Below are positions 2,756 to 29,290 of a DNA stretch of 64,000 bases, in pieces (positions within the stretch are counted from its first letter, which is position 1; each line of letters starts with the position of its first letter). The notes under the pieces are model-generated. The model was not told the DNA's origin and ran no database searches. It saw only the letters and a list, made by a program, of their open reading frames with translations. Source of the stretch: Bacteroidia bacterium. GTDB lineage: Bacteria; Bacteroidota; Bacteroidia; NS11-12g; UBA955. The translations under genes and the position numbers were made by a program. The DNA lies in the NCBI GenBank assembly GCA_023653095.1, contig JAMNXP010000002.1:206910-270909 (forward strand). Direction: 5' to 3'.

Positions 2756-4789
2756 TTACAAATTTACAGTAAGCTGAACAAATAAAATCCTACCCATACC
2801 AATGTTTACACCCCCATTGCTGTTGCCGTGAACGCCTCCAGTTTGAGCGGTAGCGGCTAATTGGCTAACATTAAAGAGGTTTTTTGCGCCCCATTGGAAT
2901 TGAGCTTTATTGAATAAATTATGACTAAAACTAAGGTCTGCAAGAGTGTAAGAGGGCAAAGTGTACACTTCACCATTTGAAGTGAAACCTTGAGTTTTTC
3001 CTGAGAATCTGCTAAACCAAAGCACGTTGGTGTTATACTTTTTTAGGGGATATTGAACGTTAAGGGTATGTTGAAATACTTGCCATTCATTGAGTCCGCC
3101 ATCAACATTCACTCTCGCATAATTTTGAATAAATGATGAGTTCCATGTGAAGGTAGTGTTGTAAATGAAAAATTCTGATGAAATATTGGCCCCACTAGAT
3201 GTCATTTCACCAATGTTAATGTATTTGTATAGGGCGGTATTGGGGTCAACCAAGCTCAATTGAATTTGGTTATTGATGGAGTTGTAAAAACTGGATAACT
3301 TAAATTGAGCGGCAATATTTTGGTTGATGGTGTGACGGTAATCTAGCGATGCAATAAAATTGTGAGAATTCTCAGCTTGAAGGTTCTCATTGCCTTGAAC
3401 ATTATGATTTATATCTACAAATAAAAAGTACATTTCTTTTGCAGTAGGAGCTCTGAATCCGCGAGCATAAGAACCGCGGAATTGAGTGAATTTCGAAATT
3501 TGATATTTAAGTTGAAAAGACGGTATGATGGGAGCGAATTTTAAGTGATTGTTGAAAATCGCTGGAGCTATTTCTGTTCCGAATGCATTGTTGTATGCGA
3601 TTCTTAAAGATGGTTTTAAATTGAGTTTTTGGGTAGGTTTATATTCTAGCGACCCAAACAATGCAGCGTCCCAAATGGGTTGAAATTGTTGAATTCTCTG
3701 TCCAGTAATATCTTCTCTCTGAATATCATAGCCAGCCATGAACACAAACTTTTTGAATTTATTGTTTTCCCAAAGAGCTCGCAGATTTAATAGGGAATTC
3801 AGGGTTGTATCTTGGTCAGATGGTCTTGTAACTATTTCTGAGCCGTTGACCAAATTGCGACGGACATTGATTTTTTCTCGATGATAGACATTGAAAGCAT
3901 TTTGAAAGCGAAAACTGTTGTTCGCATTCATTTTGTAATCTACGGTATATCCTAAATCAGCACGTTGTGTGTAGAAATAATTGTTGTATCCGGTCACTCC
4001 TATCAAATTGAATTCAGCATTGGAGCGATCTGTCAATTTCTCATGAAAGTAATTTAGGTTTATTTTATGGTTCAGTTTCTTCGTTTTGTATCCCCATCCG
4101 GCGTTGCCAAACCATTTGATTTTTGGTTTCCAATCAACCATTCTGCTTTCCGGGTTAAAGTCTAAGCCCTCAAAAAATTGTCTTCCAATATTGAAATCTA
4201 ACCATTGATTTTTGGTGTAAAAGTACTTCATGCCCGCATCTTGATTGATGTTTTTGGCACCATCCTTATAGGCTTTTGCGAAATACGAATTTTGATTGGT
4301 CAAAGGTGTTTTTGTAATGATATTGATCACTCCACCAATGGCATCTGTACCATAAACGACGCTCATTGGACCTTCCACTACCTCAATTCTTTCAATGCTT
4401 TCAGTGGGGATTTGGGACACATCAATATTGCCGTTTAATCTGCCAACCATAGGAATTCCATTAATTAATATCTTTACGTTTTGCCCTCCTAAACCTTGAA
4501 GCTTTACCGATGACCCTAGGCTCGGGTCATTTGAGATAATCATGGATGATTGATTGTTTAAAACATCATTGAGATTCTGTGCAGCCATGTTTTTTATGGT
4601 TTTAGAGCTAATAACCTGAACAGAATAAGGATTATCGGTTGCCAAACGCGGATTTACAGAGGCAGTGATGCTGACGGGGTTGATTAATTCCACTGATGAG
4701 TCAACGGAACTATTTGTACGCAAAGAATTTTGGGAGTACAATGGATTTAGTACTCCCAAAATTGAAATTATGATTAGCGTTTTTTTCAA
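2756..4789 (-). CDS. TonB-dependent outer-membrane receptor (haem/iron, HmuR-like)
   Basis: Outer-membrane beta-barrel that imports a ligand using TonB energy; 677 residues, usual size for the family. A signal peptide (MKKTLIIISILGVLNPLYSQ) is followed by a plug domain with ISSKTIKNMAAQNLNDVLNN near residue 60, VKILINGIPMVG near 108 and IERIEVVEGPMSVVYGTDAIGG near 132. The barrel has the LRAxTAKE-type motif RGFRAPTAKEMYF and a final strand ending FVQLTVNL. It sits between two HmuY-type genes, so haem or haemoprotein-derived iron is the likely substrate. That substrate is inferred from neighbours. Siderophore or vitamin B12 receptors share the same architecture. Confidence 0.9.
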   Translation of the reverse strand: MKKTLIIISILGVLNPLYSQNSLRTNSSVDSSVELINPVSITASVNPRLATDNPYSVQVISSKTIKNMAAQNLNDVLNNQSSMIISNDPSLGSSVKLQGLGGQNVKILINGIPMVGRLNGNIDVSQIPTESIERIEVVEGPMSVVYGTDAIGGVINIITKTPLTNQNSYFAKAYKDGAKNINQDAGMKYFYTKNQWLDFNIGRQFFEGLDFNPESRMVDWKPKIKWFGNAGWGYKTKKLNHKINLNYFHEKLTDRSNAEFNLIGVTGYNNYFYTQRADLGYTVDYKMNANNSFRFQNAFNVYHREKINVRRNLVNGSEIVTRPSDQDTTLNSLLNLRALWENNKFKKFVFMAGYDIQREDITGQRIQQFQPIWDAALFGSLEYKPTQKLNLKPSLRIAYNNAFGTEIAPAIFNNHLKFAPIIPSFQLKYQISKFTQFRGSYARGFRAPTAKEMYFLFVDINHNVQGNENLQAENSHNFIASLDYRHTINQNIAAQFKLSSFYNSINNQIQLSLVDPNTALYKYINIGEMTSSGANISSEFFIYNTTFTWNSSFIQNYARVNVDGGLNEWQVFQHTLNVQYPLKKYNTNVLWFSRFSGKTQGFTSNGEVYTLPSYTLADLSFSHNLFNKAQFQWGAKNLFNVSQLAATAQTGGVHGNSNGGVNIGMGRILFVQLTVNL

Positions 4790-14521: not shown

Positions 14522-15643
14522 ATGAAATTTATAGCTTCTTCAAGCGACTTGCTTCAGCACCTTCTCACAGTTAATGGTGCCATCATGTCTAAACCCATCA
14601 TTCCTATTTTGGAGAACTTTTTGTTCGATATTCATGGAGGTGAGTTGACCATATTCAGTACCGATTTGGAAACGAGTATGACAACGGCGCTAAAAGTAGA
14701 AGCCAATGATGATATTCGTATTGCCGTTCCAAGCAAAATGGTCATAGACATATTACGCTCTTTGCCCGATAGTCCGGTGACTTTCAATATTGATACTACC
14801 ACGTTCTCCATTGAGGTAATTTCTAGCAATGGCCGATACAAAATGGCGGGTCAAGATGGAACTGAGTTTCCATCTTTGCCTGAGAAAAGCGGCGAAGGTA
14901 GTTTCAGCGTAGCTTCAAGTATTTTGTTGAGAGCCGTAAGTAAAACGCTTTTTGCAGCTGGAACTGACGAGTTGCGTTTGAATTTGACGGGTTTGTTTGT
15001 AGAGATGAAAAACAATCACGTGAATTTCGTTGCTACCGATGCCAATAAATTGGTTTGTTTCACCAGAAAAGACATTTCTCCAAATGTGGATCATTCCTTC
15101 ATCATTCCTAAGAAGCCTTTGAACCTTTTGAAAACGGCTTTGCCAAATGATGAAACTCCCGTTGTTGTTGATTACAATAAGGCGAATGTGTTTTTCAGTT
15201 TTGGAGATACTCAATTGATTTGTAGATTGTTGGATGAGAAATATCCTGACTATTCAGCGGTTATTCCAAAGAACAATCCAAATATTTTGATCATCAATCG
15301 TATGGACTTTTTAAGCTCCATCAACCGTATATCTATTTTTGCATCCAAAACTACTCATCAAGTTCGTTTGAAAGTGGTTGGTAGCGAATTAACCATTTCA
15401 GCTGAAGATATTGAAATGGCTAATGAAGCTACTGAGAAGATTGCCTGCGAATACAACGGCGATGACATGGAAATTGGTTTCAACGCTCGTTTCTTGAAGG
15501 AAATGTTGTCTACCCTTGACGGTGAAAGCATCCAACTTCAATTGTCGCAGCCAAACAGGGCCGGACTTTTGGTTCCAACAGGTAAAGATGGGATAGAAGA
15601 GATCACCATGTTGATCATGCCCATGATGTTGAATAACTACTAA
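14522..15643 (+). CDS. dnaN: DNA polymerase III sliding clamp (beta subunit)
   Basis: The beta clamp encircles DNA and tethers the replicative polymerase. The product has 373 residues, the normal length, and begins MKFIASSSDLLQHLLTVNG. Three clamp domains are visible: residues 1-120 with KPIIPILENFLFDI and TDLETSM, the middle domain with LLRAVSKTLFAAGTDELRLNL, and the third with RISIFASKTTHQVRL. It ends with the conserved LIMPMMLNNY, matching the family's IMPMR/MLNNY-type tail. The gene is not beside dnaA, so this is not an obvious replication origin. Its stop overlaps the convergent yggS stop by 4 bases. Confidence 0.96.
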   Translation: MKFIASSSDLLQHLLTVNGAIMSKPIIPILENFLFDIHGGELTIFSTDLETSMTTALKVEANDDIRIAVPSKMVIDILRSLPDSPVTFNIDTTTFSIEVISSNGRYKMAGQDGTEFPSLPEKSGEGSFSVASSILLRAVSKTLFAAGTDELRLNLTGLFVEMKNNHVNFVATDANKLVCFTRKDISPNVDHSFIIPKKPLNLLKTALPNDETPVVVDYNKANVFFSFGDTQLICRLLDEKYPDYSAVIPKNNPNILIINRMDFLSSINRISIFASKTTHQVRLKVVGSELTISAEDIEMANEATEKIACEYNGDDMEIGFNARFLKEMLSTLDGESIQLQLSQPNRAGLLVPTGKDGIEEITMLIMPMMLNNY

Positions 15644-16305
15644 GAAAATACTTTACTACCCACTCTAATTAGGGTAGATCCATGAGCAGTGGCAATCTCA
15701 TAGTCACTGCTCATTCCAATGGATAGTTCTTTGAATTCATTGGAATGGCTGAAATGTTGCCTTTTAGCCTCTTGAAATAGTGAATTAATCTGTGCGAATT
15801 CCTGGTTGATTTGATCCGTGTTTTCAGTAAGCGATGCCATACCCATCATTCCGCAAATAATTACATTTTCAAGGGTGTCTTTCTCCTTTTGAAATTCATT
15901 CCAAAAGTCATTCAACGACTGCGGTGGAATACCAAATTTACTCTCTTCTTGTGCCACATGAACTTGAATTAGAACTTTAATCGTTTTTGAACAGGCTGCC
16001 GCTTGACGGTTGATTTCTTTCAGTAGTTTCATTGAATCAACCGAATGAATCATTTCAATAAAGGATGCAATATACTTGACCTTGTTGGTTTGAAGGTGTC
16101 CTATTAAATGCCATTCAATATCATCAGGAAGTTGCTCTTTGCGTTCCAAGAGGGCCTGAACTCTGTTTTCAGCGAAAGTTCTTTGTCCGGCGTGATAGGC
16201 TTCTTGGATTTCTCTGATTTCACGGTACTTTGAAACAACAATGAGCTGGGTGCTTTCAGGCAATTGTTTCTTGATTTGATCGATGTTTTCTGCTATGCGA
16301 CTCAT
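15640..16305 (-). CDS. yggS: YggS/PROSC-family PLP homeostasis protein
   Basis: Single-domain PLP-binding protein of 221 residues with a TIM-barrel fold, which buffers pyridoxal phosphate and affects amino-acid homeostasis. The PLP lysine lies in LIVVSKYREIREIQEAY near residue 25. The family pattern AENRVQALLERKEQLPDDIEWHLIG follows at about 60, then HLQTNKVKYI, HSVDSMKLL and the phosphate-binding C-terminal ELSIGMSSDYEIATAHGST with RVGSKVF. It is divergent from the DUF4296 gene, with only about 20 bases between starts, and convergent with dnaN. Confidence 0.93.
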   Translation of the reverse strand: MSRIAENIDQIKKQLPESTQLIVVSKYREIREIQEAYHAGQRTFAENRVQALLERKEQLPDDIEWHLIGHLQTNKVKYIASFIEMIHSVDSMKLLKEINRQAAACSKTIKVLIQVHVAQEESKFGIPPQSLNDFWNEFQKEKDTLENVIICGMMGMASLTENTDQINQEFAQINSLFQEAKRQHFSHSNEFKELSIGMSSDYEIATAHGSTLIRVGSKVFS

Positions 16306-20680: not shown

Positions 20681-21796
20681 ATGTTGAAGAAGGGGCTTCT
20701 TGCTATTGTTTTGGTCTTTGGATTGGGGCGTGAGCTCAATTTGAAGGCTCAACAAAATAAGGGCCTGACAACCGAACAAATCATTCAATCTCGGTATCAC
20801 TCGTTCACTGATTCTACGAAACGCAAAATTGAAGCTTTCTTTGATTATCACCAGCAAATAGGCAATTTCAATGGTACTTATTTGATGTTTTCCAATGACA
20901 GCATCATTTATGGTTCGAGGGGATATGCGATTTACAGTAATCTAGATTCTGTGGAGCCTGGCGATTTGTTTCAATTGGCATCGGTTTCAAAAATTTTTAC
21001 CGCTATGAGCGTCATGATGCTGCATCAAGACGGTTACCTTAATATCGATGACTCTGTGCATTGGTATATTCCCGAACTCGAAAATAAAGGCGTCACTATT
21101 CGACAATTATTGAGCCACACCAGCGGACTACCTGATTATTTTTATGCTGACTATCCGAAGGGCTTTTTCCCCGAGGGACAAACCCACATGACCAATGAAC
21201 AGGTGGTGGAAGTGATCAATTTACAAGGTAAACGCAAGTATACCAAGCAAGGATTTTACCATTATTGCAATACGAATTACGCTTTTTTGAGTCTCATAGT
21301 TGAGAGGTTGTCGCACAAAGATTTCCGAACTTTTGTCAGGGATCATATCTGCAAAAGTGCCGAAATGAAATATTCACACATTGCCAATTTTGATTCCCTG
21401 CCGTTGGTGAATTATCCTGTTCAAGGGTACAACAAGTGGAGTGTTTTTGATGATAACATTTTCAATGGAACTACGGGCGACAAGGGTGTTTATTCCAATG
21501 TTTTCGAGATGTTCATGCTTGACCGCGCATTGAAAGGCTCCTACATCCTCCACGAAGCAACTAAACAAGAAATGTGGACTCCCCAGACGGTTACCAGTTC
21601 CGACGGTTATTATTCTTTGGGATGGCGAATCAAGTACATTGACGGAAAGAAATGGGTGTTTCACAACGGCTGGTGGAAGGGCTTTCGCACCTACTTTTGG
21701 CGCTGCCTAGATGAAGATAAGAGCTTCGTAGTGCTTACCAATAACGTGGATGGCAGATTTCTCAGCACCCTACAGATGGTCCATTTATTGGATTGA
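20681..21796 (+). CDS. Exported class C beta-lactamase-like serine hydrolase
   Basis: Periplasmic or secreted serine hydrolase of 371 residues in the AmpC/penicillin-binding-protein fold. A signal peptide (MLKKGLLAIVLVFGLG...LKAQ) precedes the catalytic SVSK tetrad (Ser101, Lys104). The second motif is YCN (Tyr195-Asn197) and the KTG-box equivalent is HNG (about residue 328) in FHNGWWKGFRTYFW. LSHTSGLPDYF near residue 147 is typical of the family, whose members are mostly D-aminopeptidases, esterases or peptidoglycan-related enzymes rather than antibiotic-hydrolysing beta-lactamases. The substrate is unknown. The end overlaps the convergent gene by 12 bases. Confidence 0.88.
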   Translation: MLKKGLLAIVLVFGLGRELNLKAQQNKGLTTEQIIQSRYHSFTDSTKRKIEAFFDYHQQIGNFNGTYLMFSNDSIIYGSRGYAIYSNLDSVEPGDLFQLASVSKIFTAMSVMMLHQDGYLNIDDSVHWYIPELENKGVTIRQLLSHTSGLPDYFYADYPKGFFPEGQTHMTNEQVVEVINLQGKRKYTKQGFYHYCNTNYAFLSLIVERLSHKDFRTFVRDHICKSAEMKYSHIANFDSLPLVNYPVQGYNKWSVFDDNIFNGTTGDKGVYSNVFEMFMLDRALKGSYILHEATKQEMWTPQTVTSSDGYYSLGWRIKYIDGKKWVFHNGWWKGFRTYFWRCLDEDKSFVVLTNNVDGRFLSTLQMVHLLD

Positions 21797-22729
21797 AATT
21801 CGCTGAAAAGTGCTTTGTGATCGAATTATGTAAATCCCTTCAAGTAAATGGCTTAGGTCTATTTTATCGCCGCGTTCCACGTTGTTTTTTTCTCCAACTA
21901 TTGATCCATTGGAAGCCATAATTTGAATGTTTTCAAGGTTTTGAAGCGCTGTAAGTTCCCTGTATTGATAATTGTAAATGACCATTTTTTCTTTTTCGGG
22001 GGACGTTAACCCGTTGAAGATTCCTTGATTGATCACTCCAATGGCATCGAGGTCAAATCCTGAGCTGGCAAAGTTCGTAGGCCACGGATCGTTAATGATA
22101 TTTCCTTTTGAGTCTATGGTACCCAAAAGTGGATTGATTGAACCTACAACATCATTGATTTTTACGTAATGAAATTTCAGAGGCAAGTCAGGACTGATGA
22201 TTTCTGAAATATCAAAGGGTGTTCCAAAGGGCATTCTATATTTACCCGCCAAATTGTGAATGTTCTCTGGGAAAGTAGAGCCAAAGCTAGCCGTTTGCGA
22301 ATCAATTTGAGTCAGACTCACCGATGGAAAGCGGTAGAAGTCAACTCCGTTCTCACTGATTTCCACATGGGCCAATTCCAAGAACGAATCATTGAATGCA
22401 TTTTCAAACACGGCAAAATCAAACCCTGGTCCATCTAATATGGGCGGATTGAAATATACAAGAGCGGAGCCGCCATCGCCCAAGCTAACCACACCATTTT
22501 TTCGCGATTTGCCTACGGCTGAATTTTCGTTTCCAACAGCAGCCCATCCAGAATCAGCTACATTTATTTGCCTGAGTCCAACATTTAACTGTGATGAGAT
22601 TCCCCAGCCCACAAAACAGGAACTGTCACCATGAATGGCAGTGCTCCCAAATATACCTGCAGCTGGTGCAAACTGAGCACACAGTTTTGTACATGCGGTT
22701 AGGATTGTTATGGTGATGAGGTGTTTCAT
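21785..22729 (-). CDS. Secreted protein with T9SS type A-like C-terminal domain
   Basis: Secreted protein of 314 residues with a signal peptide ending TKLCAQ. The central domain has LGDGGSALVYFNPPILDG near residue 82 and FDFAVFENAFND near 103, followed by HVEISENGVDFYRFPSVSLTQ. This pattern is seen in cell-surface proteins of unknown function. The last roughly 60 residues (LENIQIMASNGSIVGE to GIYIIRSQSTFQRISIQ) resemble a type A T9SS sorting domain, though the usual YPNP is missing. The ATG follows directly on a heptad repeat array, with no promoter box visible in between. I cannot assign a function. Confidence 0.7.
   Translation of the reverse strand: MKHLITITILTACTKLCAQFAPAAGIFGSTAIHGDSSCFVGWGISSQLNVGLRQINVADSGWAAVGNENSAVGKSRKNGVVSLGDGGSALVYFNPPILDGPGFDFAVFENAFNDSFLELAHVEISENGVDFYRFPSVSLTQIDSQTASFGSTFPENIHNLAGKYRMPFGTPFDISEIISPDLPLKFHYVKINDVVGSINPLLGTIDSKGNIINDPWPTNFASSGFDLDAIGVINQGIFNGLTSPEKEKMVIYNYQYRELTALQNLENIQIMASNGSIVGEKNNVERGDKIDLSHLLEGIYIIRSQSTFQRISIQ
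21993..22004 (+). other. Recurrent 12-mer TTTTCGGGGGAC, copy 2
   Basis: Exact copy antisense to the secreted-protein gene, where the complementary codons read as SPEK. The encoded residues differ from those at copies 1 and 4. Confidence 0.5.
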
Positions 22730-22731
22730 TT

Positions 22732-22900
22732 ATCGGTTTTCGGTGATCGGTGATCGGTGATCGGTGATCGGTGGTCAGCGGTCAGTAATCGGCTCTCGGC
22801 TCTCAGCTCTCAGCCAGCGGCGAAGCCGCCTAGCCAAAGACCAAAGACCAAGGACCAAAGACCAAAGACCAAAGACCAAGGACTAACGTCCAAAGACCAA
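22732..22900 (-). repeat. Composite heptanucleotide repeat element A
   Basis: Read on the minus strand this element starts right after the cyclodeaminase stop codon. First come about nine tandem heptamers GGTCTTT with variants such as GGTCCTT. Next is a hairpin GCGGC-TTC-GCCGC (22829-22817). Then come about twelve heptamers of the form CYGAnnn (CTGAGAG, CTGACCG, CCGATCA and others) that run up to the ATG at 22729. Period 7 is maintained throughout. It shares its architecture and polarity with element B at 27131-27309. Confidence 0.85.
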
Positions 22901-22903
22901 ACC

Positions 22904-24592
22904 CTACTGTCTTAGCCCCTGTTCAATTTTATTAGCAATTTCGTCGCATTCACGGTGGTTTTTTGCGAGAAGGGTCTCAGCCTTTTCTACTATCTCGGTT
23001 GCAAATGCTCGGTCAGTTAAATCTTTTGCATTGGTGAGAACGTTGAAAAATGCACCGCGAACTGCAGTTTTTATGCAAATAACGCCTACGGCAACATCGC
23101 TCATGCTGTTGGGGTTGCCAATGATTGACATTTCTTTCAGTAGAGGCAAACAATTATAGGCAGCTTCCATGGTTCGGAATGGAATCATGGTGGCGTATTG
23201 GCTGGCTTTTTCAACGGCTTCTTTTCGGGCAATTTTTTGTTCTTCGGTGTCTTTAGGCAGTTGGAAAGCAGCCATAATTCCATCGAAAGCGCGAGTATCT
23301 TCATCTACTAAATGAAGCAGTTGATCTTTGAGTTTTTGTCCCTTCTCAGCCCAAGGCGAAAAATCGGCTACGCGATCTTCCCAGCCTCTTTTGATGGCAC
23401 TTCCGTTGGCCACCATCGTGCCAAGGGCAGCGCCAAGCGCACCCGATAGAGCGGCTATACTTCCACCTCCTGGGGCAACAGAATCGCTGGCCGTTTCGTT
23501 GGTAAACGCTTTAACACTCATGGAAACGAGGCGTTCTTGAGCCAAGTCTTTTAGAAGATATTCTATGATTCTGGTTTTGGGGTCAAAGTGGCTCAATTCA
23601 TTTAAACCCATGCTTTTGATAGCCATATCAACCAGCGTTTGTTCGTCAACACCACTGCTCATGCCTTGTTTTTCAAGGAAATACTTACCAGCATCGAGCA
23701 TCGGTTGGAGGGGTACAAGTCCTACCAATTCGCTGCCAGTGACTCTTACGCCGCGTTCGTCAGCCGATTTGCAAGTTTCTTCAAAAACGGAATGCAACGG
23801 GGTTTCTCTGAAGTTGGTGAGATTGATGCTGATTTGAGCAATTCCATATTCTTCTATGTACCAGCCTATGGCTTTCACGTGTTTCAGCTTTCCGGGGATG
23901 CGAACATCTTCGCCGTTTTCGTCTTTGACAATTTTTCCAACGTAGGGATTTCCTTCTCGGAGGACTCTTCCCGCTTCGCGGATGTCAAAAGCTATTCGGT
24001 TGGCAATGCGGGTGCTCTTGCTATTGAGATTGACGTTGTAAGCAATGAGGAAGTCTCTAGCTCCAATGACGGTGGCTCCCGCCTTCGAATTCATTTTTGA
24101 AGGACCAAAGTCTGGTTTCCATTGAGGTTCTTGTATTTTGTCGAAAAATCCTTCGTATTCACCAGAACGAATCACACTGAGGTTAGATCGAGATTTATTT
24201 GGTTGAGCCTCCTCGTATAAATATACGGGAATTTGGAGTTCATTACCCACGCGTTCAGCGAGTTTTTGGGCATATTGAGCGGTTTCTTCCATGCTAATTC
24301 CTGAAATAGGAATCAAAGGACAAACATCGGTGGCACCCATGCGGGGGTGTTCACCGCTGTGTTGCGACATATCAATAAGTTCAGATGCGCATTTGATTCC
24401 GCGGAATGCGGCCTCAATGACAGCTTCTGGCTCTCCCACGAAAGTAACCACGGTTCTATTGGTGGCTTTTCCTGGATCTACGTTTAATAATTTTATTCCA
24501 TCAACTGACTCAATAGCATCTGTAATTTGCTTGATAATCTGAGGGTTTCTGCCTTCACTAAAATTAGGAACGCACTCAACAATTTTTTGCAT
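22904..24592 (-). CDS. ftcD: Glutamate formimidoyltransferase / formimidoyl-THF cyclodeaminase (bifunctional)
   Basis: Bifunctional enzyme of histidine degradation. It moves the formimino group from formiminoglutamate to THF, then releases ammonia to give 5,10-methenyl-THF. The product has 562 residues, close to full-length eukaryotic-type FTCD. The N-terminal transferase (about 1-300) shows VECVPNFSEGRNPQII at the start, HSGEHPRMGATDVCPLIPI near 80 and FRETPLHSVFEETC near 262. The cyclodeaminase domain (about 360-562) has SDSVAPGGGSIAALSGALGAAL near 371 and NPNSMSDVAVG near 497. Other hut genes are not adjacent. Element A follows its stop. A TACCTTTG box ends 4 bases before the ATG, so the mRNA is probably leaderless. 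Confidence 0.93.
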   Translation of the reverse strand: MQKIVECVPNFSEGRNPQIIKQITDAIESVDGIKLLNVDPGKATNRTVVTFVGEPEAVIEAAFRGIKCASELIDMSQHSGEHPRMGATDVCPLIPISGISMEETAQYAQKLAERVGNELQIPVYLYEEAQPNKSRSNLSVIRSGEYEGFFDKIQEPQWKPDFGPSKMNSKAGATVIGARDFLIAYNVNLNSKSTRIANRIAFDIREAGRVLREGNPYVGKIVKDENGEDVRIPGKLKHVKAIGWYIEEYGIAQISINLTNFRETPLHSVFEETCKSADERGVRVTGSELVGLVPLQPMLDAGKYFLEKQGMSSGVDEQTLVDMAIKSMGLNELSHFDPKTRIIEYLLKDLAQERLVSMSVKAFTNETASDSVAPGGGSIAALSGALGAALGTMVANGSAIKRGWEDRVADFSPWAEKGQKLKDQLLHLVDEDTRAFDGIMAAFQLPKDTEEQKIARKEAVEKASQYATMIPFRTMEAAYNCLPLLKEMSIIGNPNSMSDVAVGVICIKTAVRGAFFNVLTNAKDLTDRAFATEIVEKAETLLAKNHRECDEIANKIEQGLRQ

Positions 24593-24596
24593 GGCA

Positions 24597-24604
24597 CAAA
24601 GGTA
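24597..24604 (-). promoter_or_regulatory. -7 box of ftcD
   Basis: Minus-strand TACCTTTG matches TAnnTTTG and ends 4 bases before ATG at 24592. It lies back to back with the glmM promoter box. Confidence 0.55.
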
Positions 24605-24624
24605 AATAATTCAGTTCAATTGGG

Positions 24625-24632
24625 TATCTTTG
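24625..24632 (+). promoter_or_regulatory. -7 box of glmM
   Basis: TATCTTTG matches TAnnTTTG and ends 12 bases before ATG at 24645. Divergent with the ftcD box; the two are about 20 bases apart. Confidence 0.55.
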
Positions 24633-24644
24633 CGCCCCGTTTTT

Positions 24645-26024
24645 ATGACGTTAATCAAATCCATTTCAGGCATTCGCGGCACCATCGGAGGTGCACCTAC
24701 AGACAACCTTACCCCAGTTGATATAGTTAAGTTTGCTTCGGCATACGGCTCATGGATATTGAGCAAAGGTGAGAATAAAACCATTGTTATTGGTAGAGAT
24801 GCTCGAATCAGTGGTTCTATGGTTTCTGAGTTGATCATTCAAACCCTCATTGGCCTAGGACTTGATGTAGTTGATTTGGGGCTTTCTACAACACCAACTG
24901 TAGAAATGGCTGTTCCTGCAGAGAATGCGGCAGGCGGAATTATCGTGACCGCATCACACAATCCAAAGCAGTGGAACGCTCTAAAGTTGTTGAACGAAGT
25001 AGGTGAGTTTATCAGTGCTGCTGAGGGACAAAAAATCCTAGAAATTGCAGAAGCCGGCGAGTTTCATTTTGCCCCTGTAGACCAACTAGGAAAACGAAGC
25101 AGCAAAGATTATTTAGATTATCATATTGAGCAGATTTTGGCTTTAGACTTGGTGAAACCAGAGTTGATAAAGAAAGCCAATTATAAAATTGCGGTTGACC
25201 CCGTGAATAGCGTAGGTGGTATTGCTGTACCTCGTTTGTTGAATGCCTTGGGCGTTGATGACGTGGTTATTATAAATGGCGAACCTACAGGTGTATTTGC
25301 TCACAATCCAGAACCATTGGCAGAACATTTGGGTGAAATTTCTTCTACCGTAAAAAGTGAAAAATGTCATTTAGGCATCGTTATTGATCCAGATGTAGAT
25401 CGATTGGCATTTGTTTGTGACGATGGGGAAATGTTTGGTGAAGAATATACTTTGGTGGCGGTTGCTGATTTTGTTTTGAGTCACAAACCAGGCGCTACAG
25501 TAAGTAATTTATCAAGCACTCGCGCATTGAGAGATATTACTGAAAAAGTGGGCCAATCTTACTTTGCTAGTGCGGTGGGAGAGGTGAACGTTGTAGAGGT
25601 CATGAAGGCCAACAATGCAGTTATTGGTGGTGAAGGTAATGGTGGAGTGATTGTTCCAGAATTGCATTACGGAAGAGATGCCTTAGTAGGAATTGCCTTG
25701 TTTTTGACTCACCTTGCAGAAAAAGGAGTGAAAATCAGTAATTTGAGGTCTACTTATCCAACGTATCAAATGTCAAAAAACAAAGCGGAATTAACTGCAG
25801 GTACTGACGTTGATATGATATTGGAGAAAATATCCGAAAAATATAAAAAGCAACCTCAAAATACCATTGATGGGGTTAAAATTGAGTTTGATGGAGATTG
25901 GGTGCATTTGAGAAAAAGCAATACCGAACCCATCATTCGCATTTACGCGGAAAGCGCAAGTATCACAACGGCAGAAAATCTTACTAAAAAAATCCTCCAA
26001 GACATTGGAGAAATAATTGAATAA
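24645..26024 (+). CDS. glmM: Phosphoglucosamine mutase / phosphohexomutase
   Basis: Converts glucosamine-6-phosphate to glucosamine-1-phosphate for peptidoglycan and LPS precursors. The product has 459 residues starting MTLIKSISGIRGTIGG; an in-frame TTG at 24630 lies in the promoter box and is rejected. Motifs are the phosphoserine loop VTASHNPKQWNALK near residue 101, the metal loop DPDVDRLAFVCDDGE near 247, the sugar loop GEGNGGVIVPE near 328 and the phosphate loop RKSNTEPIIRIYAE near 428. Bacteroidota GlmM proteins of this type are sometimes annotated as phosphomannomutase/phosphoglucomutase, so substrate choice is less certain than the fold. ychF follows after 2 bases. Confidence 0.88.
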   Translation: MTLIKSISGIRGTIGGAPTDNLTPVDIVKFASAYGSWILSKGENKTIVIGRDARISGSMVSELIIQTLIGLGLDVVDLGLSTTPTVEMAVPAENAAGGIIVTASHNPKQWNALKLLNEVGEFISAAEGQKILEIAEAGEFHFAPVDQLGKRSSKDYLDYHIEQILALDLVKPELIKKANYKIAVDPVNSVGGIAVPRLLNALGVDDVVIINGEPTGVFAHNPEPLAEHLGEISSTVKSEKCHLGIVIDPDVDRLAFVCDDGEMFGEEYTLVAVADFVLSHKPGATVSNLSSTRALRDITEKVGQSYFASAVGEVNVVEVMKANNAVIGGEGNGGVIVPELHYGRDALVGIALFLTHLAEKGVKISNLRSTYPTYQMSKNKAELTAGTDVDMILEKISEKYKKQPQNTIDGVKIEFDGDWVHLRKSNTEPIIRIYAESASITTAENLTKKILQDIGEIIE

Positions 26025-26026
26025 CT

Positions 26027-27127
26027 ATGTCTTTACAATGCGGAATTGTTGGTCTACCCAACGTGGGGAAATCTACTCTTTTCAATGCAGTCTCTAGTGC
26101 CAAGGCACAATCTGCGAACTTTCCTTTTTGCACCATTGAACCCAATGTTGGAACCATAACTGTTCCCGATGTCCGTATCAATACCTTGTCGGCGTTGGTG
26201 AATCCGCAAAATATTGTCCCTACTACCATTGAGATTGTGGATATCGCTGGATTGGTAAAAGGCGCATCGAAGGGAGATGGTTTAGGTAACCAGTTTTTGG
26301 GGAATATCAGAAATACACATGCCATTTTGCATGTACTCCGTTGTTTTGACGATGATAATATCATCCACGTAGATGGAAGTGTAGACCCCATCAGAGATAA
26401 AGAGATCATTGACACTGAGTTGCAATTGAAAGATTTAGAAACTCTTGAAAATAGAATCTCAAAAATTGCCAAACAAGCAAGAACCGGTGGCGATAAAGAA
26501 GCCGCACGGTTACTAGAAGTTTGTGAAGCCTTCCGAGATCACCTTCTAAAAGGACAGAACGCCCGTACTTTAGAGATGGATGCAGAGAAACGCCTGGCTA
26601 TCAAAGAGCTGAATCTCTTAACTGATAAGCCGGTAATGTACGTTTGTAACGTTGACCCTAGCAGTGCAAAGTCGGGAAATGCTTATGTTGATCGTGTGCG
26701 TGAATCAGTAAAGAATGAACAAGCTGAAATCTTAGTAATTTCCGCTGCCATTGAAGCGGAAATTGCTGAGTTGGAAAGTTTTGATGATCGCCAAATGTTT
26801 CTTCAAGAGTTGGGACTTGATCGCAGTGGTGTTGAGAATCTCATTCATGGTGCATACAAACTATTGAATTATATCACCTATTTCACCGTTGGTGTTAAAG
26901 AAGTTAGAGCTTGGACCATCACCAAAGGAATGAAGGCACCTCAAGCGGCTGGAGTTATTCATACAGATTTTGAAAAAGGCTTCATCCGCGCCGAAGTAAT
27001 TGCCTACGACGACTACGTTCACTACAAGACAGAATCAGCTGCCCGCGATGCAGGTAAGCTCCGTGTTGAAGGAAAAGAGTACGTTGTCAACGACGGCGAT
27101 TGCATGCATTTTAGGTTTAACGTATAG
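26027..27127 (+). CDS. ychF: Redox-regulated ribosome-binding ATPase YchF (Obg family)
   Basis: P-loop NTPase that prefers ATP over GTP, binds ribosomes and influences stress responses. The product has 366 residues, full length. G1 is GIVGLPNVGKSTLFNAV near residue 6, the switch region is NFPFCTIEPNVG near 31, and G3 is VDIAGLVKGASKGDGLGNQF near 69. The G4 position reads NVDP rather than NKxD, as usual for YchF. A C-terminal TGS domain ends YVVNDGDCMHFRFNV. It is probably co-transcribed with glmM. Repeat element B begins 3 bases after its TAG stop. Confidence 0.96.
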   Translation: MSLQCGIVGLPNVGKSTLFNAVSSAKAQSANFPFCTIEPNVGTITVPDVRINTLSALVNPQNIVPTTIEIVDIAGLVKGASKGDGLGNQFLGNIRNTHAILHVLRCFDDDNIIHVDGSVDPIRDKEIIDTELQLKDLETLENRISKIAKQARTGGDKEAARLLEVCEAFRDHLLKGQNARTLEMDAEKRLAIKELNLLTDKPVMYVCNVDPSSAKSGNAYVDRVRESVKNEQAEILVISAAIEAEIAELESFDDRQMFLQELGLDRSGVENLIHGAYKLLNYITYFTVGVKEVRAWTITKGMKAPQAAGVIHTDFEKGFIRAEVIAYDDYVHYKTESAARDAGKLRVEGKEYVVNDGDCMHFRFNV

Positions 27128-27130
27128 GCA

Positions 27131-27309
27131 GGTCTTTGGTCCTTGGTCTTTGGCTATTGGTCTTTGGTCTTTGGCTGACCGCTTCGCGGGGGACATTGCG
27201 GCTGTGGGCTATTTGCCGATACACTCTACACTCTAAACTTCTGACCGCTGACAGCTGACGGCTGAGAGCTGAGAGCTGATGGCTGATGGCTGAGAGCTGA
27301 TGGCTGATC
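27131..27309 (+). repeat. Composite heptanucleotide repeat element B
   Basis: It starts 3 bases after the ychF stop. The first part is a GGTCTTT heptamer array (about seven units, with variants GGTCCTT and GGCTATT). Next comes the hairpin CCGC-TTC-GCGG (27179-27189), a roughly 40-base spacer with two ACACTCT heptamers, then about ten CTGAnnn heptamers (ACCG, ACAG, AGAG, ATGG and ATCA variants). It runs into the stop end of the convergent E1 gene at 27308. It has the same order and polarity as element A relative to the upstream gene. Confidence 0.85.
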
Positions 27310-29290
27310 ACCACCCCAACAATTCTGTTAAAGTATTTTCAAGTCGGCCCCATGGCAAGAACTGGTCTTCCAGTGATTTTGCTAGCGGAATGGGTGTGTC
27401 GAGGCTTCCGAGTCGTCTTACGGGTGCATCCAAGTGTTGGAAAGCGTTTTCAGTGATGTACGCCGAAATGTCGGAAGCGATGCTTCCGGTGAGAGTGTCT
27501 TCCGTGAGAACCAATGCTTTGTTGCAGCGCTTCACTTGTTCAATGACCGTGTTTTTGTCCCAAGGAAGAAGTGTCCGCAAGTCAATGACGGTGACGTTTA
27601 GGTTTTTCTTCTTGATGAGATCCAGACTTTGATGAACTCCCCATCCGTAGGTGATGATGCAGCAATCACTTCCGAAGTCGTGAACGGCGGCTTGGCCTTC
27701 TGGAAGTGTGTAATAGGCCGAAGGGACTTCAGATTCTGTGTTTCTATAGAGGAATTTATGTTCAAAGAAGAGCACTGGATTCGGGTCTTCGATGGCTCGC
27801 AATAGGAGACCTTTTGCATCAAAAGGATTGGATGGATAATAAATTTTGAGCCCTGGAACGTGATAGAACCAAGCTTCGGTGCTTTGGCTGTGAAACGGAC
27901 CTGCCTGCACGCCCGCACCCGTGGGCATTCGAACCACCACCGACGCGGGTTGCTTCCAACGGTAGTGACTTTTTGCCATATTGTTGACAATCTGATTGAA
28001 TCCGCAAGTTACAAAGTCGGCAAATTGCATTTCCACTACAGACTTTTTTCCCTTGATGGAAAGTCCGTAAGCCGCACCTAATATACTGCTTTCTGTGATG
28101 GGCGTATTCCGAACGCGGTGCCTGCCGTACTTTTCACTGAGTCCTTCGGTGGCCTTGAAGGCCCCACCGTATTCTGCAATATCTTGGCCCATAATCACCA
28201 AATCTGGATGTTTCTCTAGGGCCTGATCAAGAGCGTTTTTTACCGCATCGATGAGTCTTAGGGTTGTTTTTTCGGGGGACTCGCCTTCGGCGGAAGTTAA
28301 TTCTGAACCAAACGGAGCGTATAATTCAGAGAGTTCATGATCTAAATCGGGAATGATTTCGGGTTCATTGAATACTTTTTCAATGGCAATATTTAGGATG
28401 TCAAGTCGTTCTTTTCTGATTTTTTCAATGCCTTCGTGGTCTAAAAGTCCCTCGCCAAAAAGAAAATCTTCAAAGTTCTTGATGGGGTCTTTTTGAGCCC
28501 ACTGTTCAATGAGTTCTTTGGGCACATATTTAATACCCGATGCTTCTTCGTGTCCGCGCATGCGGAAGGTCATGGCTTCAAGTATGACAGGTCTGGGTCT
28601 AATTCTTACGCTATCGGCGAGATTTTTTACGGTATGGTATACATCCAAAATGTTGTTGCCATCTACTTTTATGGCCTCCATGCCGTAGCCAATTCCCTTG
28701 TCAATGAATTGTTTGCAACGAAATTGATCATTGCTTGGGGTAGATAGTCCGTAACCGTTGTTTTCAATGAGGAATATTACGGGTAAGTCCCAAACAGCAG
28801 CTACATTGAGTGCTTCATGAAAATCGCCTTCGCTGGCACCACCATCGCCGCTGAAAACCACAGTTACCGTATTTTTTTGATTGAGTTGATCAGCTAGAGC
28901 AATTCCGTTGGCTACACCTAACATGGCGCCGAGATGACTGATCATTCCAACGATGTGGTATTCATTGGTTCCAAAGTGAAAGCTTCTATCTCTACCTTGG
29001 GTAAACCCGGATGCCTTTCCTTGCCACTGGGCAAAAAGTCGTTCATCAGGGATGTCTCGGGAGGTGAATACACCCAAGTTTCGGTGTAACGGAAGCACGT
29101 ATTCGTCTGAATTCAATGCCAAAGTGGTTCCCACTGAAATGGCTTCCTGTCCGATGCCAGAAAACCATTTGCCAATTTTACCCTGTCTGAGTAAAATGAG
29201 CATACGTTCTTCAATGATGCGGGGCGTCAATAGTGCTTTATATAAGTCGAGCAGCTGCTGATCTGTGAGGTTTTTTCGGTTAAATTGCAT
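27308..29290 (-). CDS. Fused alpha-beta E1 of a 2-oxoacid (branched-chain) dehydrogenase complex
   Basis: Thiamine-diphosphate E1 that decarboxylates branched-chain 2-oxoacids or a related substrate and passes the acyl group to lipoyl-E2. The product has 660 residues with both E1 halves in one chain. The alpha part (1-330) has GKWFSGIGQEAISVG near 43, SGDGGASEGDFHEALNVA near 147 and VIFLIENNGYGLSTP near 172. The beta part (345-660) has LVIMGQDIAEYGGAFKATEG near 365, ITESSILGAAYG, VVRMPTGAGVQAGPFHSQSTE near 456 and DLRTLLPWD near 574. Bacteroidota fusions of this type are usually annotated as 2-oxoisovalerate or pyruvate-like E1; the substrate is not certain. E2 and E3 are not nearby. The linker encodes SAEGESPEK, over a recurrent 12-mer. 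Confidence 0.9.
   Translation of the reverse strand: MQFNRKNLTDQQLLDLYKALLTPRIIEERMLILLRQGKIGKWFSGIGQEAISVGTTLALNSDEYVLPLHRNLGVFTSRDIPDERLFAQWQGKASGFTQGRDRSFHFGTNEYHIVGMISHLGAMLGVANGIALADQLNQKNTVTVVFSGDGGASEGDFHEALNVAAVWDLPVIFLIENNGYGLSTPSNDQFRCKQFIDKGIGYGMEAIKVDGNNILDVYHTVKNLADSVRIRPRPVILEAMTFRMRGHEEASGIKYVPKELIEQWAQKDPIKNFEDFLFGEGLLDHEGIEKIRKERLDILNIAIEKVFNEPEIIPDLDHELSELYAPFGSELTSAEGESPEKTTLRLIDAVKNALDQALEKHPDLVIMGQDIAEYGGAFKATEGLSEKYGRHRVRNTPITESSILGAAYGLSIKGKKSVVEMQFADFVTCGFNQIVNNMAKSHYRWKQPASVVVRMPTGAGVQAGPFHSQSTEAWFYHVPGLKIYYPSNPFDAKGLLLRAIEDPNPVLFFEHKFLYRNTESEVPSAYYTLPEGQAAVHDFGSDCCIITYGWGVHQSLDLIKKKNLNVTVIDLRTLLPWDKNTVIEQVKRCNKALVLTEDTLTGSIASDISAYITENAFQHLDAPVRRLGSLDTPIPLAKSLEDQFLPWGRLENTLTELLGW
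28269..28280 (+). other. Recurrent 12-mer TTTTCGGGGGAC, copy 3
   Basis: Exact copy antisense to the linker between the alpha and beta halves of the E1 gene, where the complementary codons again read SPEK. A short CGCC-TT-CGGCG-type hairpin follows immediately. Confidence 0.5.

Follow-up and report, generated by a model that had tools for sequence, protein, structure and literature searches.

Polar intergenic heptamer arrays at gene edges in a Bacteroidia genome and its close congener

Repeats of seven bases have long been recorded in bacteria, and we know of no accepted reason for them. Heptamer repeats are over-represented in bacterial genomes, according to the accessible parts of the surveys (PMC6749651, PMC12699852; Mrazek and Huang 2007 as quoted in PMC4692102). 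Two described families come closest to the arrays treated here. Rehm et al. 2015 reported GGGAATC and GGGGAYT heptamers in Xanthomonas and Nostoc, discussed there as G-quadruplexes. As far as the accessible text goes, these heptamers form intergenic facing pairs on opposite strands, 70 in Xcc and 75 in Xac, and convergent gaps account for 16%. Downstream of stops the G-rich strand coincides with the sense strand, and upstream of starts with the antisense strand. A sister species mostly keeps the same gene context, with extensive variation in length and sequence (PMC4692102). The second family is that of MacGregor 2015, whose available text describes TAACTGA heptamers with a patchy distribution in Beggiatoaceae, Cyanobacteria, and some Bacteroidetes. 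The BOGUAY repeats are mostly forward and lie just ahead of start codons, and translational control was proposed for them; some genomes mix in other heptamers (PMC4679880).

The arrays described here come from a Bacteroidia bacterium (GCA_023653095.1, the home genome). The window, i.e., the whole 64,000-nucleotide stretch analysed (contig JAMNXP010000002.1, positions 206,910 to 270,909), carries two of them, elements A and B. We call the strand that reads GGTCTTT, GATCGGT, or NNTCAGC the RGY strand. Element B is genuine and far from chance, and is one of 65 array clusters sampled in the home genome. Its left neighbour is ychF (26027–27127, plus strand; YchF GTPase by Pfam), with a TAG stop at 27125–27127. 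The left arm begins three bases later and occupies 27131–27174; it is a (GGTCYTT)n array of GGTCTTT and GGTCCTT units whose RGY strand is the plus strand, pointing away from ychF. A central hairpin, CCGC-TTC-GCGG (27179–27189, GCGAAGC on the minus strand), is followed by a non-array spacer (27190–27242) and by the right arm (~27243–27309). This arm reads (GCTGANN)n on the plus strand, that is, RGY words NNTCAGC on the minus strand, and points away from the convergent right neighbour, a dehydrogenase E1 or transketolase-type gene (27308–29290, minus strand).

In element A, seen from the plus strand, the left arm (22732–22814, plus) runs from the start codon of the gene at 21785–22729 and consists of (GATCGGT)n, then (NNTCAGC)n. 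The hairpin (22817–22829) is GCGGC-GAA-GCCGC on the plus strand and GCGGC-TTC-GCCGC on the minus strand. The right arm (22834–22901) is (GGTCYTT)n on the minus strand, starting directly after the stop of ftcD (22904–24592, minus strand; formiminotransferase-cyclodeaminase by Pfam). Read on the minus strand, element A is thus GGTCTTT after the ftcD TAG, the hairpin, GCTGANN, and then ACCGATC up to the ATG of the next gene. A first-pass annotation of this DNA had described the same parts in the same order in A and B, an array start just past a TAG stop, and a TTC loop in both hairpins. All of this stands on the sequence, with small additions: ACCGATC is a third block in element A, and in element B about 52 nt separate the hairpin from the second array.

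The words are abundant well beyond the window. The home assembly is 2.04 Mb in 14 contigs and 74.8% complete, and one window gene gives a sub-threshold match to a type IX sorting domain, which points to the Bacteroidota. The pattern GGTCTTTGGTCTTTGG, at up to three mismatches, matches the window 15 times, whereas shuffles average 0.77 matches; at up to two mismatches, it has 370 matches genome-wide against 5 for the reversed pattern. Three consecutive CTGANNG units occur at 201 places genome-wide and ACCGATCACCGATCACC at 145, each against none in the control. Outside this genome the vocabulary is narrow in its range, as an exact GGTCTTT pair is found in two of the 14 genomes of the genus (175 at home, 10 in the close congener G002) and in none of 24 further relatives. 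GGTNNNN arrays occur in 107 of 296 genomes of the phylum, a count without a clean control, because TGGNNNN, the pattern reversed, matches the same arrays. At least five home contig ends (C5, C7, C8, C9, C12; L163, L169, L170, L174, L180) lie in an array or within a few hundred bases of one, so the arrays probably interrupt the assembly, and their number is probably underestimated. Two local variants were seen. The array at L151:7488-7566, opposite an ACCGATC arm, is (TTTAGGG)n, which we take to be the plant telomere heptamer, and at G000:C7:34229-34476 an ACCGATC array is built of 28-base higher-order repeats, each of four heptamers.

The order of the words was scored in 40 array-centred stretches plus the window, which yielded the 65 clusters. 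Words were grouped as L1/R1 (GGTCYTT and its complement), L2/R2 (GATCGGT), and L3/R3 (NNTCAGC). By this grouping, 26 clusters read L then R (LR) and none reads RL; 20 contain L words only, 16 contain R words only, and three switch several times (LRLRLR, LRLR, and LRL). A wider class sets AGT, GGT, or AGC against ACT, ACC, or GCT at a period of seven. With one-sided and untyped clusters excluded from the comparison, LR stands to RL as 31 to 1 at home (60 clusters, with 3 mixed, 14 L-only, and 11 R-only) and as 17 to 0 in G002 (31 clusters, with 10 L-only and 4 R-only). Among 152 clusters in 111 database loci from several phyla, the ratio is 27 to 4, with 5 mixed, 49 L-only, 46 R-only, and 21 untyped. 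This last count took in L044, apparently a contig of G002 itself; the edge-rule, gradient, and composition counts given below are free of it. In the same 111 loci, an array of the complement AAAGACC follows GGTCTTT on the downstream side in 20 and precedes it in 2; in 73 neither flank has one, and 16 are too close to a contig end.

The facing order reflects a simpler regularity at the gene edge. That is, the RGY strand points away from the nearest gene, with a count of 41:1 at home, 20:3 in G002, 20:1 in six genomes of the same class, and 73:18 in the database loci. These counts cover the typed arrays near one gene, as follows: 42 of 97 at home (17 in long ORFs, 14 gene-less or tied, and 24 untyped having been dropped), 23 of 57 in G002, 21 of 43 in the same-class genomes, and 91 of 265 elsewhere. 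Of the three G002 exceptions, one is an arm of a two-sided element (site A). The home and G002 arrays had been viewed before the word classes were chosen, so that those two genomes are not independent tests; the same-class and database sets were picked by word and not by gene side. One-sided home clusters lean the same way: of 15 with L words, 12 lie closer to the left gene, and of 13 with R words, 8 lie closer to the right. G exceeds C on the RGY strand in 56 of 66 home arrays, 36 of 39 in G002, 30 of 30 in the same class, and 150 of 162 in the database set. Element B is thus one of many polar heptamer arrays spread through the intergenic gaps of the genome. Their two arms begin at the flanking gene edges and point toward each other, separated by a centre that varies, with an RGY strand that is usually rich in G and T.

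Gene context bears on the interpretation offered by the first-pass annotation, a directional 3′ UTR module or terminator of the upstream gene. Of the 65 clusters, 29 lie in convergent gaps, 18 in tandem gaps, and 7 in divergent gaps, with 6 called within ORFs and 5 at the edge of a stretch; the 45 gene pairs of the window comprise 6 convergent, 32 tandem, and 7 divergent ones. In stretches unselected for arrays, an array is present at home in 3 of the 55 convergent gaps, 3 of the 244 tandem gaps, and 1 of the 54 divergent gaps, a set that contains the window and hence A and B; the figures for G002 are 8 of 99, 7 of 451, and 4 of 100. Pooled, arrays occupy 11 of 154 convergent gaps against 15 of 849 others (Fisher p = 0.0008). 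Stops predominate over starts among the rule-abiding arrays: 35 to 6 at home, 16 to 4 in G002, 14 to 6 in the same class, and 45 to 28 in the database set. The element is therefore dispersed at gene ends, as had been proposed, and one side of element A is among the arrays that lie just ahead of a start codon. Two arrays, at L154:2974-3065 and at L258, were called inside an ORF; they sit at matching positions in the home genome and G002 and have different words.

A 3′ module would also account for the placement of A and B within three bases of a TAG and for a tendency, weaker than the edge rule, of the two ends of a cluster to differ: among clusters with both outer blocks of these types, one end is GGTCTTT and the other ACCGATC in 14, and both are GGTCTTT in 4 (p about 0.01, hand count). 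The annotation had further taken the polarity to follow the upstream gene and had named random orientation of the copies as the refuting outcome. Convergent gaps, including that of element B, cannot reveal such a polarity. Among the 18 tandem gaps, 4, including that of element A, have the GGTCTTT end on the side of the upstream stop, and 5 have it toward the downstream start, a small sample in which the other 9 gaps have no GGTCTTT block. This 4:5 split is the outcome named, and it largely refutes the 3′ module; the agreement of A and B stems from their own placement. Start codons, moreover, show the identical polarity. No intrinsic terminator, i.e., a G+C-rich hairpin followed by a T run, was found within A or B, so a terminator of that type drops out, and we regard a 3′ element of the upstream gene as very unlikely.

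The hairpin fares no better as a regular part of the element. The GCGAAGC/GCTTCGC word of A and B appears in 9 of 62 clusters and so is not a constant feature. The arms might instead pair with each other in RNA or single-stranded DNA, as a hairpin or cruciform. Long inverted arms do exist: 30 bases in L138, 22 in L034, and 25 and 20 in the home loci L174 and L169. In G286, a genome of the same class, the arms at L277:2355-2469 and 3985-4065, both filling tandem-gene gaps, are mirrored over 38 and 20 exact bases and include several heptamers. Such arms favour pairing, but the longest inverted arm exceeds the longest of five shuffles in 7 of 22 home elements and 4 of 10 in G002, and the 15 home elements without such an arm still keep the polarity. 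A and B are among these 15, with arm sequences that are not complementary and no exact inverted arm above five bases, which is below their shuffles. Pairing is thus unnecessary for polarity, and as an explanation for the arrays it is improbable. RNA folding is uneven and uninformative: over 16 elements with 25 shuffles each, z is −1.9 and +0.4 for B, −1.9 and −3.8 for A, and +2.2 to −9.0 for the others.

A core of 18–50 bases around the GCGAAGC hairpins is common to six home elements and one of G002, as might be expected of a mobile element of the MITE or REP kind copied round the genome. The rest of the 93 masked clusters have no common core at E 0.001; the exceptions are an orthologous pair and a single flank match of 19 bases. 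Rfam gave no match at the gathering score in 22000–28000. We rejected a MITE or REP origin, the least probable of the readings considered, on the restriction of the core to those elements and on the lack of a visible target duplication at site C (see below).

Comparison with G002 shows what is kept at these sites and what is not. The window and contig G002:C9 are collinear, at 82–90% identity. Six home clusters are comparable (A, B, L144, L145, and L154 on both flanks, and L150 separately; left out were six rows that are one-sided or cut and a short match within a gene), and G002 has an array at all six. At five of the six, its words differ from those at home. At site B, for example, G002 has (GGTAGGG)n, then (ACCACGG/ACTATGG)n. 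Sites A, B, and L144 show the same facing order in both species; at L145 and at L154, one of the two species has a one-sided array. The words agree at L150, where the region is 95% identical. The GGTCTTT arrays of G002 (L150 and L215, G002:C17) lie in this 95%-identical region, as against 82–90% between the window and G002:C9, which may reflect either a recent exchange or a misbinned contig. The sites are thus common to the home genome and its close congener while the words differ. The letters seem to matter less than placement and direction.

Site C is array-free at home, where two convergent genes (14522–15643 and 15640–16305) overlap by four bases at 15640–15643. G002 carries an array element of about 180 bp there, with no target duplication visible at the insertion; in the other congeners inspected by eye no array was seen at site C, and in several the next gene differs. 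The 3′ end of ftcD was compared between the home genome and G002, the two genomes matched by the ftcD motif. For ychF, 8 of 14 loci were inspected by eye: the home genome and G002 have arrays, five have none, and G006 (L190) has repeats of period eight. These lie past the ychF stop as facing arrays, GGCTTATA/GGATTATA, followed by CCAATAAG.

If the words change but direction at the gene edge stays the same, either a mutational process senses gene ends or selection acts on the strand composition of the border. As a leading but tentative guess, favoured by the facing order, the edge rule, polarity without complementary arms, and the change of words in place as well as by strand composition, we suggest that an array pair may be a two-way, Rho-type barrier to transcription. 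Seven-base slippage would make and rewrite the arrays, and arms of this polarity would be retained as barriers to polymerases coming from the opposite side. Past the centre, such a polymerase would make a copy of the opposite strand, an RNA rich in C, for the most part poor in G, and carrying a pyrimidine-C step roughly every seven nucleotides. This RNA would resemble a Rho-loading (rut) site placed just ahead of the next gene. The arm pair would then be a two-way, sequence-tolerant insulator instead of a terminator, with Rho as its putative agent.

A sequence was counted as rut-like if it had more C than G within 78 nt and C at steps of about 12. The strand opposite the RGY strand has 1.16 pyrimidine-C (YC) steps per seven nucleotides at home, 1.33 in G002, 1.09 in the same class, and 0.96 in the database set. 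Among single-type arrays of at least 78 bp, the C-rich strand is rut-like in 26 of 28 at home, 9 of 11 in G002, and 7 of 9 in the six same-class genomes, whereas the RGY strand passes in 6, 3, and 0; a looser form of the criterion gives 26, 9, and 8. YC ladders per nucleotide (0.072, 0.091, and 0.085 in the same order) exceed the shuffled values (0.022, 0.037, and 0.028) by 2.5–3.3-fold, yet composition-matched shuffles are themselves rut-like in 71%, 52%, and 64% of cases. Periodicity thus contributes something and composition most. Elements A and B contain rut-like windows, with C above G and YC steps, on both strands, which is weak evidence since 52–71% of shuffled arrays pass; in five array-free gaps of the window, 3 of 10 strands are rut-like (none plus, three minus). 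The same pass rate of the shuffles counts against the barrier, as do the rut-like strands of array-free gaps, the inner words NNTCAGC/GCTGANN, which are not G-poor on the C strand, and the arrays directly ahead of start codons, which would put a rut site in the gene's own leader.

A barrier might also be expected to stand in for intrinsic terminators, and here the contrast is uneven between samples. In G002, a terminator is found at 1 of 16 convergent 3′ ends with an array against 21 of 48 without (p = 0.006), or at 1 of 14 with an array once two stretches are removed (p = 0.012). The array-poor congener G007 has one at 16 of 30 convergent 3′ ends. At home, array-centred stretches show no difference (2 of 48 with an array, 0 of 10 without), unselected stretches give 0 of 6 against 10 of 30 (p = 0.16), and the comparison of 2 of 48 with 10 of 30 (p = 0.0008) mixes two samples. 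Over all 3′ ends, the contrast is non-significant in every set. Site C has a terminator in 5 of 7 congeners besides the home genome and G002, although in L267 the gap is about nil and the match probably lies in the next gene; site B has one in 2 of 10. Since arrays fill gaps, a missing terminator may simply reflect a shortage of space. The replacement of terminators by arrays is suggestive, no more.

Polarity arising from mutation alone is about as likely as the Rho-type barrier. The arrays would then be functionless slippage satellites tolerated in spacers, and their polarity a trace of how they formed, for instance by 3′-end growth at breaks or by fold-back inverted duplication from conserved gene edges, after which each arm was rewritten on its own. 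The patchy distribution of the GGTCTTT pair within and beyond the genus agrees with this, as does the fast turnover of words at kept sites. The mirrored arms of several words in G286 are what fold-back predicts, and the site C insertion in G002 left no visible duplication. The enrichment in convergent gaps suits tolerance and function equally. Growth from the edge, in contrast, predicts older units at the edge, and no such gradient is seen in 66 home, 23 G002, 12 same-class, or 111 other arrays; terminal growth from the gene edge was rejected on these four sets.

The missing gradient also speaks against repeat addition by a reverse transcriptase, telomere-like or DRT10-like. DRT10 produces tandem-repeat DNA, in the available account (PMC12632851), and here the G-richer strand runs 3′ toward the gap. 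The home genome has a reverse transcriptase gene at L218:182-1060, minus strand (G000:C11, ~326–886), the sole RVT_1 match in the 14 genus genomes, with RT_VI as its best PADLOC model. G002, at 99% completeness, has arrays and no RVT_1 match, and on that ground this origin was rejected. A related suggestion, G-quadruplex elements of the GGGAATC kind, meets main words that have GG and not GGG; GGG tracts for a three-tetrad quadruplex are absent from the arrays of A and B (GGTCTTT, GATCGGT, NNTCAGC). Taken together, repeat addition and quadruplex elements are highly improbable.

Returning to the Rho-type barrier, we propose a wider version of it, which we think rather unlikely: across several phyla, polarity and spacing would be kept and not the word, so that the arrays would serve as a rewritable two-way insulator replacing intrinsic terminators, with a vocabulary for each genome. 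Whichever process is at work, single arrays are unsafe to read as gene-specific 3′ elements.

The arrays can now be set beside the known systems. Rho-dependent terminators are described, in the part of the source available, as C>G bubbles with YC steps (PMC9160355). The present arrays share a C-rich, mostly G-poor strand with regular YC steps, a likeness that is one of sequence alone. The TAACTGA repeat belongs to the CTGANNN class (CTGATAA), and the orientation of the BOGUAY repeats, as far as reported, is the polarity of the right arm here. In contrast to them, the present arrays are mostly at stops and are paired with other words. The accessible portions of the reports on general heptamer satellites note no polarity relative to gene edges (PMC6749651, PMC12699852). 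In a search made largely without subscription papers, we found no published account of a polarity rule that holds for differing words across phyla.

The heptamers of Rehm et al. are alike, as far as the accessible text describes them, in their period of seven, intergenic location, many sites, facing pairs, and a G-rich strand that runs away from the gene. They differ in having one G3 word per genome, whereas several words, mainly with GG, are used here, and the congener uses other words at five of six comparable sites. What is apparently new is a mixed vocabulary mostly without GGG tracts, the wholesale change of words in place, and the breadth of the rule. Since facing pairs and strand preference are already present in the accessible text of Rehm et al. 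2015, the arrays described here are best regarded as a variant and a generalisation of that system, and not as a new category.
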